Shown: in pieces, positions 20,445 to 23,156 of the stretch
Position numbering within the stretch: the stretch's first letter is position 1
Layout: each line of letters begins with the position of its first letter
Made by a program: the position numbers and the translations under genes
Source of the DNA: Pseudomonadota bacterium
Lineage (GTDB): Bacteria > Pseudomonadota > Gammaproteobacteria > Xanthomonadales > Rhodanobacteraceae
Direction: 5' to 3'
DNA length: 52,168 nucleotides
Assembly (NCBI GenBank): GCA_021780735.1
Contig: JAJXYE010000121.1
Coordinates: forward strand, 1 to 52,168
The notes under the pieces: generated by a model
What the model saw: only the letters and a program-made list of their open reading frames with translations
What the model was told of the DNA's origin: nothing
The model's database searches: none

Positions 20445-21527
20445 TCAAGCCGGCAGGAACAGTTGCAGCAGCTCGCAATCCGCGGAGCAGTTGGCGTAGT
20501 GCTGCTGCACCCCAGCGGGAACCACGAAGGCATCACCCGCCGCCAGCGCCTGCGCCGGGGCGGTGTCGACGTGCAATTGCATGCTGCCGGCAAGAACGAA
20601 GGCAAATGCGAACTGCTTCTGCTGCAGTGTCGATGTATCGGCTGCGGCCTCTTCCACGGTTCGACGGATGACGCAGGCCCCGGCCAGGCCGCCGGTGGCG
20701 GTGGCGATGCCGAGGTCGCGACGAGTCCAGCCGCCTGGCTGCGGGCTCCAGCGAGCGTGCTCCTGCTGGTGGAAGACAAAGCGCTGGCCGGCGTAGTCGC
20801 GCTCGGTCAGATGGCGGCCGGTAGGCAGATCCATCCGATGATCCAGCCACGTCATGTGTTCGGCCGGGCTGCCGATCTCGATCACTTCCAGCCCGTCCGA
20901 CGCTTCCAGCACCCGGTGCCGGATCTGTGGCGGCTGCAGCACGCAATCGCCCGCACGCATGACAAACGGTTCGCCCTGATCCTCGTACACCAGTCGCACC
21001 CAGCCGTTGAGACAGTAGATCAGCTGCAGCTGGATGTCGTGATAGTGCACGTTGTCGCCGACCGGTCCGCCGCGCGGAATGCGGATATGCGAGGCGATGA
21101 ACCGGCCGCCCTGGCGATCGGGAATCAGGTCACGGTACTGCATGCCGGCCCGACCAGCTTTCCAGTTGCCGGGCTGATCGTCCATGCGCTGGATGCAGAG
21201 ACGGGATTGCAGTGGCGGCATGTGCAGCGGCGGCCTGGCCGGAGCGAATTCGATTTGGGTTCGGTTGGGGGCGACCAGGACGGCATGAGCTTCGTCGCGA
21301 GCCATTCCCAGCCGGAGGACGCCAGGATCTCCGTGAAACTCTGCGTCCAACAGGAGGCGCAGCCCGTAGCCGCTGAGTTGGGCGCTGCGCGGTTCGTCGG
21401 CCGGCATGATGGCGTCGAGGCGAAAACCCAGGGTCTCGATGAAAAAGCGCATGGTCTGGGCAAGATCACCGGCTGGCAGCACACATTGTGCCAATTCGAT
21501 GTCAGATCCGGCAGAAATTTCATGCAT
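20445..21527 (-). CDS. VOC/glyoxalase-like domain fused to two cupin domains
   Basis: N-terminal VOC-like LAQCVLPAGDLAQTMRFFIETLGFRLDAIMP; two cupin segments (VHYHDIQLQLIYCLNGWVRLVYEDQGEPFVMRAGDCVLQPPQIRHRVLEASDGLEVIEIGSP and FAFVLAGSMQLHVDTAPAQALAAGDAFVVPAGVQQHYANC); start codon uncertain (21545 also possible). Confidence 0.75.
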   Translation of the reverse strand: MHEISAGSDIELAQCVLPAGDLAQTMRFFIETLGFRLDAIMPADEPRSAQLSGYGLRLLLDAEFHGDPGVLRLGMARDEAHAVLVAPNRTQIEFAPARPPLHMPPLQSRLCIQRMDDQPGNWKAGRAGMQYRDLIPDRQGGRFIASHIRIPRGGPVGDNVHYHDIQLQLIYCLNGWVRLVYEDQGEPFVMRAGDCVLQPPQIRHRVLEASDGLEVIEIGSPAEHMTWLDHRMDLPTGRHLTERDYAGQRFVFHQQEHARWSPQPGGWTRRDLGIATATGGLAGACVIRRTVEEAAADTSTLQQKQFAFAFVLAGSMQLHVDTAPAQALAAGDAFVVPAGVQQHYANCSADCELLQLFLPA

Positions 21528-21772
21528 GTGCAGGTGTTTCCTCATGATCCGGATCAAGCCGGGCATGCGTTTTCCTGGACTGGGCCGGAGGGCTGCGGTC
21601 GCATGGTGAACGCGGATGGCCGCCCTGTGGCCTGGCCAAGGTTGCATCGACGGCGTTTCGGACAGTGTATGCCAGTCGTGGCAGCGGGCTCGATCGCGCT
21701 TGCCTGTCGGGCAGCTGAACGGACGCCCGTTTGCACATTGAACTCACGTCGCTACGCACACACTAAGCCCGT

Positions 21773-21897
21773 GTATCGCCGTGATGGCGACAGGAAGCGG
21801 CACGGAACATGGTGTTGCTGAGGGGCCGGCCTTACCTCCCCTGGAGGCCGCCTGACAAACCTCATCAGTCCTCCCCTGGCTGATGGGGTTTTTTTAT
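21773..21897 (+). ncRNA. candidate small RNA with repeated C-rich loops (sX13-like architecture)
   Basis: Non-coding gap; hairpin CGCC/GGCG at about 21777-21789; hairpin CGGCCT-TACCTCCCCTGG-AGGCCG at about 21827-21850; terminator hairpin CCTCATCAG-TCCTCCCCTGG-CTGATGGGG-T7; weak upstream promoter-like TTGAAC/CACTAA. Confidence 0.6.
21860..21896 (+). terminator. intrinsic (Rho-independent) terminator
   Basis: 9-bp stem CCTCATCAG/CTGATGGGG (one G-U) followed by TTTTTTT. Confidence 0.85.
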
Positions 21898-21971
21898 GCG
21901 CGATGAGACGGTGAGCTTCATTCCCGCAGTGGATAATGGCAGTCATTGCCTTGTTCCACATCCGGACGCAG

Positions 21972-23156
21972 ATGATCATCGACTCTTTGCTCGATACCGA
22001 CCTGTACAAGTTCTCGATGATGCAGGTGGTCTTGCACCAGTATCCGGCCGCGCAGGTGGAGTATCGCTTCAAGTGCCGCAATCCGGGTGTCGACCTGGTG
22101 CCGTACATCGGGGAGATCCGCGCCGAACTTGCCGGACTTTGCAGCCTGCGCTTCAGCGCGGACGAGCTCGACTACCTGCGCAGCTGGCGTTTCATCAGCA
22201 GCGACTTCATTGATTTCCTGGGCCTGTTCCAGCTCAACGAGAAATATGTCGAGATCACGCCTGCCGCTGCCGACAACGGCGAGATCGAGATTCGCATCTG
22301 CGGGCCCTGGCTGCACACGATCCTGTTCGAGGTGCCGTTGCTGGCAATCGTCAACGAAGTGTATTTTCGCCATGCCAGCGCCGGGCTGGATCTGGCCGAA
22401 GGCCGTCGACGCCTGCGCCATAAAATCGCCCTGCTGCGGGATGCCCCGGACTATGCCGGCTGCCGCATTGCCGACTACGGCACGCGCCGGCGCTATGCGC
22501 GGGTGTGGCATGAAGAGGTGGTGACCACACTGCGCGACGAGCTGGGCACGCAGTTCGCTGGCACCAGCAATGTCTGGTTGGCGCGCAAGCTCGACCTGAC
22601 TCCGCTCGGCACGCTTGCGCATGAATACCTGCAGGCGCACCAGGCACTGGGCCCGCGGTTGCGCGACTCGCAGGTTGCGGCGCTGGAGGCGTGGGCCAGG
22701 GAGTACCGTGGTGACCTCGGCATCGCGCTGTCCGACGTCTACGGCCTCAACGCGTTCCTGCGCGACTTCGACATGTATTTCTGCAAGCTGTTCGACGGCA
22801 CCCGACACGATTCCGGCGATCCGTTCGAATGGGGCGAGAAGGTACTGGCGCACTACGCCTCGAACCGGGTCGATCCGCGCAACAAGGTGCTGGTATTCAG
22901 CGATGGCCTGGACATCCCCAAGGTGATGCAGCTGTACCGACATTTCCGTGGCCGCTGCCTGCTGGCCTTCGGCGTCGGCACCAACCTCACCAACGACGTC
23001 GGACCGGCAGCCCTGAACATCGTGATCAAGATGATTCGCTGCAACGGTCAGCCGGTGGCCAAGCTAAGCGATTCGCCCGGCAAGAACATGTGCGAGGACA
23101 AGGCCTACGTGGCGTACTTGCGGCAGGTGTTCGAGATTCCCGACGGAGCTGACTGA
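21972..23156 (+). CDS. pncB: nicotinate phosphoribosyltransferase
   Basis: [63 protein letters not shown]; start trimmed to ATG 21972. Confidence 0.95.

Follow-up and report, generated by a model that had tools for sequence, protein, structure and literature searches.

Background

Xanthomonas sX13 (Rfam RF02232, gathering cut-off 50 bits) uses C-rich loops to repress, independently of Hfq, mRNAs that carry 4G motifs close to the start codon; in an sX13 mutant type IV pilus genes are upregulated, pilE approximately 3-fold (PMC3771888). The RNA accumulates at 37 °C and in high salt, and its gene has been described as always located downstream of polA (PMC3771888). For the Rhodanobacteraceae, no sRNA study was found in the paper collection searched.

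The locus described here lies in a 52,168-nt stretch of DNA (the window) from a soil bacterium of the Rhodanobacteraceae, whose genome is a 3.57 Mb draft, 87% complete, and whose PncB has its closest relatives in Rhodanobacter (90-91% identity). Between a glyoxalase/cupin gene and pncB there is a small RNA gene, and we consider it likely that its product is a stand-alone trans-acting sRNA of an unnamed family, probably an ancient paralogue of sX13, whose C-rich loops would repress target mRNAs, probably under envelope stress.

Results and discussion

The RNA gene and its predicted fold

The features of the locus are collected in Table 1. Read along the plus strand, TTGAACTC (21738-21745) is followed by a 16-nt spacer, by ACTAA, by six bases and then by the RNA, whose 5' end is placed at about 21773 from promoter spacing and conservation and whose 3' end would be that of the T-run (21895/21896), as judged from the terminator. 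The coordinates given in the preliminary description, 21773-21896, were thus right almost to the base. As had also been pointed out there, no plus-strand gene needs this terminator, since the upstream neighbour is read from the minus strand and pncB lies downstream. The true start of that upstream glyoxalase/cupin gene is probably near 21526, though the open reading frame is listed to 21647, and PncB homologues begin at residue 13 of the open reading frame starting at 21936.

Table 1. Features of the pncB sRNA locus (positions in the window)
Feature	Position	Strand	Evidence
Glyoxalase/cupin protein gene, upstream neighbour	20445..21526	-	Pfam PF07883, PF00903
Upstream element CTGAA[C/T], ~22 nt before -35	21715..21720	+	81/90 promoter-bearing copies, 20-32 nt upstream
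-35 element GAACTC, preceded by TT, RpoE/ECF-like	21740..21745	+	TTGAAC conserved 1.00, 42 species-level sequences
-10 element ACTAA, exactly 16 nt past GAACTC	21762..21766	+	ACTAA 81, TCTAA 9 among 90 copies
Small RNA gene, ~122-124 nt	21773..21896	+	R2 model 122.8 bits at 21773-21893; conservation profile
SL1, UCGCC-GUGAU-GGCGA, near-invariant 5' hairpin	21776..21790	+	5/5 pairs invariant, 55 sequences
SL2, covarying hairpin without C-rich loop	21796..21819	+	6/7 pairs changed on both sides
GAGGGG, partly in SL3 base, complementary to C-rich loops	21820..21825	+	mean conservation 0.87
SL3, exposed C-rich loop CCUCCCCUGG at 21835-21844	21823..21853	+	predicted fold
SL4, intrinsic terminator, C-rich loop CCUCCCCUGG at 21870-21879, T-run	21857..21895	+	terminator scan
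pncB -10 box GATAAT, separate, conserved, downstream of sRNA terminator	21932..21937	+	TGGATAAT conserved 0.88
pncB, nicotinate phosphoribosyltransferase	21972..23156	+	NF003704, 591 bits; start set from homologues

The sRNA is predicted to fold into four hairpins, with an energy of -56.4 kcal/mol against -44.96 kcal/mol in dinucleotide shuffles (z -2.9). Sequence and fold confirmed the two hairpins with an identical C-rich loop originally described, the second of them a T-tailed terminator: CCTCCCCTGG was read directly twice, both times within hairpin loops, and in the window RNA the motifs are loop-exposed with unpaired probabilities of 0.99-1.0 (0.99 for the C4 of the SL3 loop). According to base-pair probabilities the motif is open in SL4 of all sequences and in SL3 of most. 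Only in Rhodanobacter does the identity of the two loops hold; Dyella has an SL3 loop of the ACCCUCCCCC kind, which leaves the SL4 loop as the only invariant one. The CGCC/GGCG hairpin reported to precede them was located as SL1, whose loop is a GUGA tetraloop in many relatives; the three hairpins of that first account were therefore right, but the fourth, SL2, and the promoter had been missed. For SL3, a short GGGG/CCCC hairpin proposed by RNAalifold was dropped in favour of the longer stem, which is present in most individual folds and has two-sided changes.

Just 5' of SL3, the near-invariant GAGGGG is complementary to the CUCCCC loops of both the pncB RNA and sX13, and could possibly serve for self-sequestration or for cross-talk with sX13.

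Conservation, covariation and distribution

The RNA region is kept in all 45 Rhodanobacter genomes, its aligned part running from promoter to terminator (~21732 to 21903). Stems 2-4 covary strongly among 55 distinct homologues, as the preliminary description had expected of a genuine RNA, with double changes in 16 pairs; SL4 contributes covariation in 8 of its 13 pairs. Doubly changed cells numbered 189 against 65.6 +/- 7.8 in shuffles, which ignore relatedness, and 96% of cells were paired against 30-48% with the helices slid, a control that retains relatedness. Conservation and covariation are far above chance. The SL4 loop UCCCCUG is invariant in the 55 sequences while its stem changes freely, a pattern characteristic of a structural stem that carries a functional loop. 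By these comparisons the gene, its predicted boundaries and structure, the conservation of its loops and its putative promoter are well supported.

With the R2 model, matches of at least 44 bits were obtained in 62 of 116 sampled Rhodanobacteraceae genomes (hand count), and the RNA was present in 17 of the 26 genera sampled (our own count), including Rhodanobacter, Dyella and Fulvimonas. In 150 genomes of the order outside the family there was no strong R2 match, the top one scoring 31.4 bits, and no R2 match adjoined pncB at the loci retrieved from Luteibacter and Frateuria. One contig titled Candidatus Eremiobacteraeota (CAJCJD010000218.1) carries a Rhodanobacteraceae-like pncB together with a pncB-type sRNA and is likely mis-binned.

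Further copies follow recN and purH or adjoin phhA and a GH92 gene, most of them with promoter-like sequence in front, and their persistence at these loci shows that the RNA does not depend on pncB as a neighbour. Two genomes carry tandem triplets (L195:2715-3374 and L196:2891-3602), one following purH and the other elsewhere; each copy in them has its own terminator, and the triplets resemble arrays of sibling sRNAs.

These results bear on the alternative raised in the preliminary description, that the RNA is a 5' leader of pncB whose terminator or attenuator controls NAD salvage in cis. Such a leader would agree with the strongly conserved location, directly upstream of pncB and on the same strand at 36 of the R2 loci examined. 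However, pncB has its own conserved -10 box past the terminator, the stretch between terminator and box is variable in length and unconserved (0.48, then 0.88 at TGGATAAT), the predicted folds contain no dominant antiterminator pairing, and the same RNA with promoter-like sequence occurs at the recN, phhA, purH and GH92 loci, which lack pncB. A leader is disfavoured by the separate -10 box and by the copies without pncB, and we regard it as very unlikely; on sequence grounds, the RNA upstream of pncB is probably its own transcription unit.

An ECF-type promoter and the probable role of RpoE

The promoter is the most informative part of the locus. A conserved promoter of its own precedes 90 of 96 copies of the RNA, with a spacer of 16 nt in 88 of the 90. 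Among the 42 species-level sequences, CACACTAA is conserved at 0.95, the spacer at 0.60 and the gap before the RNA at 0.55. Copies linked to pncB have [C/G/A]TTGAACT and then ACTAA, and some of the others GGAACTT-N16-TCTAA. The sX13-model loci of Rhodanobacteraceae commonly show TTGAACTT-N16-TCTAA, once CACTAA, with polA adjacency verified in the host genome only, where the polA-linked sX13 has CAACTT-N16-TCAAA.

The gene for RpoE itself was recognized by TIGR02939 above its cut-off in each of eight genomes, and in these the rpoE promoters combine TGAACT[T/C] with TCTGA, a spacer of 16 nt separating GAACTN from TCTGA (GAACTTGGGCGCCATGCCGCGGTCTGA in the host genome). The published AlgU/RpoE consensus is GAACTT-N16/17-TCtgA (PMC10651043). 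Because the sRNA promoters resemble both the rpoE promoter and this consensus, RpoE probably controls the pncB RNA as well as sX13, a reading with which the accumulation of sX13 at 37 °C and in high salt fits. Another ECF sigma factor is nevertheless possible, since ACTAA and TCTGA disagree at a position of high conservation and each of the genomes has 5-17 matches to the RpoE-type sigma model.

A sigma-70 promoter scan of 600 bases returned none, and RpoH, considered on account of CTTGAA, was ruled out by the lack of a conserved CCCCAT-like -10 element. Three Rhodanobacter genomes lack the exact sequence GGAACTT-N16-TCTAA, so this form does not serve them as a general promoter; for TGAACT-N17-ACTAA each genome has a single match, at the pncB sRNA locus.

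Two side observations concern these promoters. In most copies the CTGAA[C/T] element lies 20-23 nt, about two helical turns, before the -35 element; it repeats the core of that element, is dispensable for an ECF promoter and could be an activator site or a second sigma contact. The rpoE-type promoter is itself conserved ~100 nt before rpoE (L215-L220), which suggests that rpoE may be autoregulated.

Relation to sX13

No Rfam family reached its cut-off anywhere in the window. The top Rfam match of the pncB RNA was sX13, at 30.8 bits (E 6e-4), and in the whole host genome the sX13 model had only two significant matches, this one and another of 37.8 bits directly downstream of polA (DNA polymerase I gene), the next scoring 14.0 bits. 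In the opposite direction, the R2 model found the polA-linked sX13 of the host genome at 28.5 bits, and it recovered the majority of the other tested sX13 loci in the correct position and on the correct strand.

The two RNAs are alike in length (~115-120 nt), in their stable hairpins with exposed C-rich loops, one of them on the terminator, in their intergenic position and, within Rhodanobacteraceae, in promoter type. They differ in that the pncB RNA lies in the cupin/pncB gap instead of at polA and coexists with a polA-linked sX13, in the 5' half (SL1 and SL2) and in layout, sX13 having three stable stems with three apical C-rich loops and the pncB RNA four stems with two such loops.

A relocated sX13 orthologue would share the C-rich loop logic and the promoter type, and would give sX13 as the top Rfam match. 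Against it, the better-scoring sX13 stands directly downstream of polA in the same genome, 59 of the 62 Rhodanobacteraceae genomes with the pncB-type RNA have an sX13 match elsewhere (hand count), and SL1 and SL2 are unlike those of sX13; strict orthology is ruled out by the co-occurrence with polA-linked sX13, and we give relocation next to no credence. The preliminary description had seen here an sX13-family homologue or a new analogue of roughly 120 nt. That a discrete ~120-nt sRNA with sX13-like C-rich loops is present is strongly supported; it is not a strict sX13 homologue, given its score against the 50-bit cut-off, its place away from polA and the separate sX13 at that gene, and it is better described as a new analogue and probable paralogue.

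The main rival reading is that the resemblance is convergent, a C-rich-loop sRNA of independent origin having been drawn to similar promoters and loops. The cross-scores are weak and the 5' halves unlike, the 6C, ar14 and P37 models also match the pncB RNA below threshold, and C-rich loops do arise in unrelated sRNAs, such as alpha-r7 and RNAIII (PMC3771888). However, the sX13 model picks just the polA and pncB RNAs in the host genome, R2 recovers most polA-linked sX13 loci tested in the right place and on the right strand, and GAACTT-N16-[A/T]CTAA promoters are common to both RNAs, so that independent origin appears unlikely. The best reading of the two significant sX13-model matches, the weak cross-matches and the shared promoter architecture is that the pncB RNA is probably a diverged paralogue of sX13 that arose by an old duplication, although the case for paralogy is built on weak cross-scores of 28.5 and 30.8 bits plus promoter similarity. 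We would describe it as a new sRNA family of a known kind, diverged and sX13-like, but distinct in its place, in its 5' half and in having two C-rich loops.

In one genome two sX13-model matches lie ~400 bases apart (L033, G057:C69:11431-11956), and a similar pair occurs in another (G104:C4), which indicates that sX13 itself has been duplicated in some members.

Proposed mode of action and candidate targets

From these features we infer RpoE as the sigma factor, descent by sX13 duplication, the mode of action and the targets. In the proposed mechanism, envelope stress would act through RpoE to raise one or more C-rich sRNAs. Transcription of the pncB RNA would start at about 21773 from the ECF/RpoE-type promoter GAACTC-N16-ACTAA and stop at the SL4 terminator, the two C-rich loops (CCUCCCCUGG) would pair with G-rich ribosome-binding sites (GGGGA...AUG) of target mRNAs, and translation would be repressed, with less pilin and other surface proteins as the outcome.

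A prepilin gene with a GGGGA ribosome-binding site, the genes being selected by that motif, was found in 33 of 45 Rhodanobacter genomes. It is mostly one pilin, with CAGGGGAG/A and in many cases CAGGGGA(G/A), which matched PF00114 in the tested example. The predicted duplex of the SL3 loop with the pilin mRNA typically has an energy of -16 to -21 kcal/mol, the 1% level for arbitrary ATGs being -16.1 kcal/mol; the pilin energies are biased because the genes were chosen by GGGGA. In the host genome, at 87% completeness, there was no pilin match. A generic search for CAGGGGAG before ATG returned mixed genes and is weak evidence, since the motif is itself Shine-Dalgarno-like. As a lead, the pncB RNA has a candidate target in the major type IV pilin, and because Shine-Dalgarno-like pairing is generic the same targets could belong to the polA-linked sX13. 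In each of two Rhodanobacter species (L253:1513-2835 and L262), a MacB/FtsX-like permease gene, identified by eye, has the same ribosome-binding site, CACAGGGGAGCGTTATG, and its mRNA may be a further candidate.

Alternatively, the RNA could be a sponge or titrator, its loops binding in bulk either a protein or the G-rich sites of ribosomal binding, or the whole molecule sequestering another RNA. Its loops are complementary to the Shine-Dalgarno sequence and invariant, two genomes carry the RNA gene in tandem, an arrangement typical of dosage-type regulators, and the conserved GAGGGG could pair with the C-rich loops of sX13. The loops nevertheless lack the repeated GGA motifs of RsmA/CsrA sites, for which reason an RsmA/CsrA sponge was rejected, and the relative that has been studied best, sX13, has discrete mRNAs as its targets (PMC3771888). 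We consider bulk titration improbable and prefer repression of individual mRNAs.

More tentatively, Rhodanobacteraceae may possess an RpoE-run battery of paralogous C-rich-loop sRNAs (polA-linked sX13, the pncB RNA and the extra copies), jointly silencing the mRNAs of type IV pilin and others with CAGGGGA ribosome-binding sites under envelope stress, a scheme that we find possible and on balance somewhat doubtful. If it were true, sX13 would rank as the best-known representative of a superfamily of envelope-stress sRNAs, and its rise under heat and salt would be explained. The present analysis adds a conserved, previously unnamed sRNA family to the Rhodanobacteraceae and suggests that sX13, whose gene has been placed invariably at polA, has paralogues at other loci; the shared GAACTT-N16-[A/T]CTAA promoter points to an envelope-stress sigma factor as the driver of sX13 transcription.

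Comparison with other sRNAs

Among other known RNAs, 6C (RF01066), P37 (RF01678) and ar14 (RF02344) share C-rich hairpin loops or a terminator hairpin with the pncB RNA and match it at 20-27 bits, but all stay below their Rfam cut-offs and belong to other clades with other structures. The enterobacterial sigma-E sRNAs RybB, MicA and MicL, which are Hfq-dependent and act through single-stranded seed regions, are unrelated to it in sequence; what they have in common with it is the proposed logic, by which an envelope-stress sigma factor induces an sRNA that reduces surface protein. VrrA of Vibrio cholerae, a sigma-E-dependent sRNA of ~140 nt, represses a surface protein and reduces the level of the pilin TcpA without a stringent requirement for Hfq (PMC2628432). 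No relation in sequence or structure to the pncB RNA is apparent and the two are likened by action alone, which would be similar in outline if RpoE control of the pncB RNA holds.
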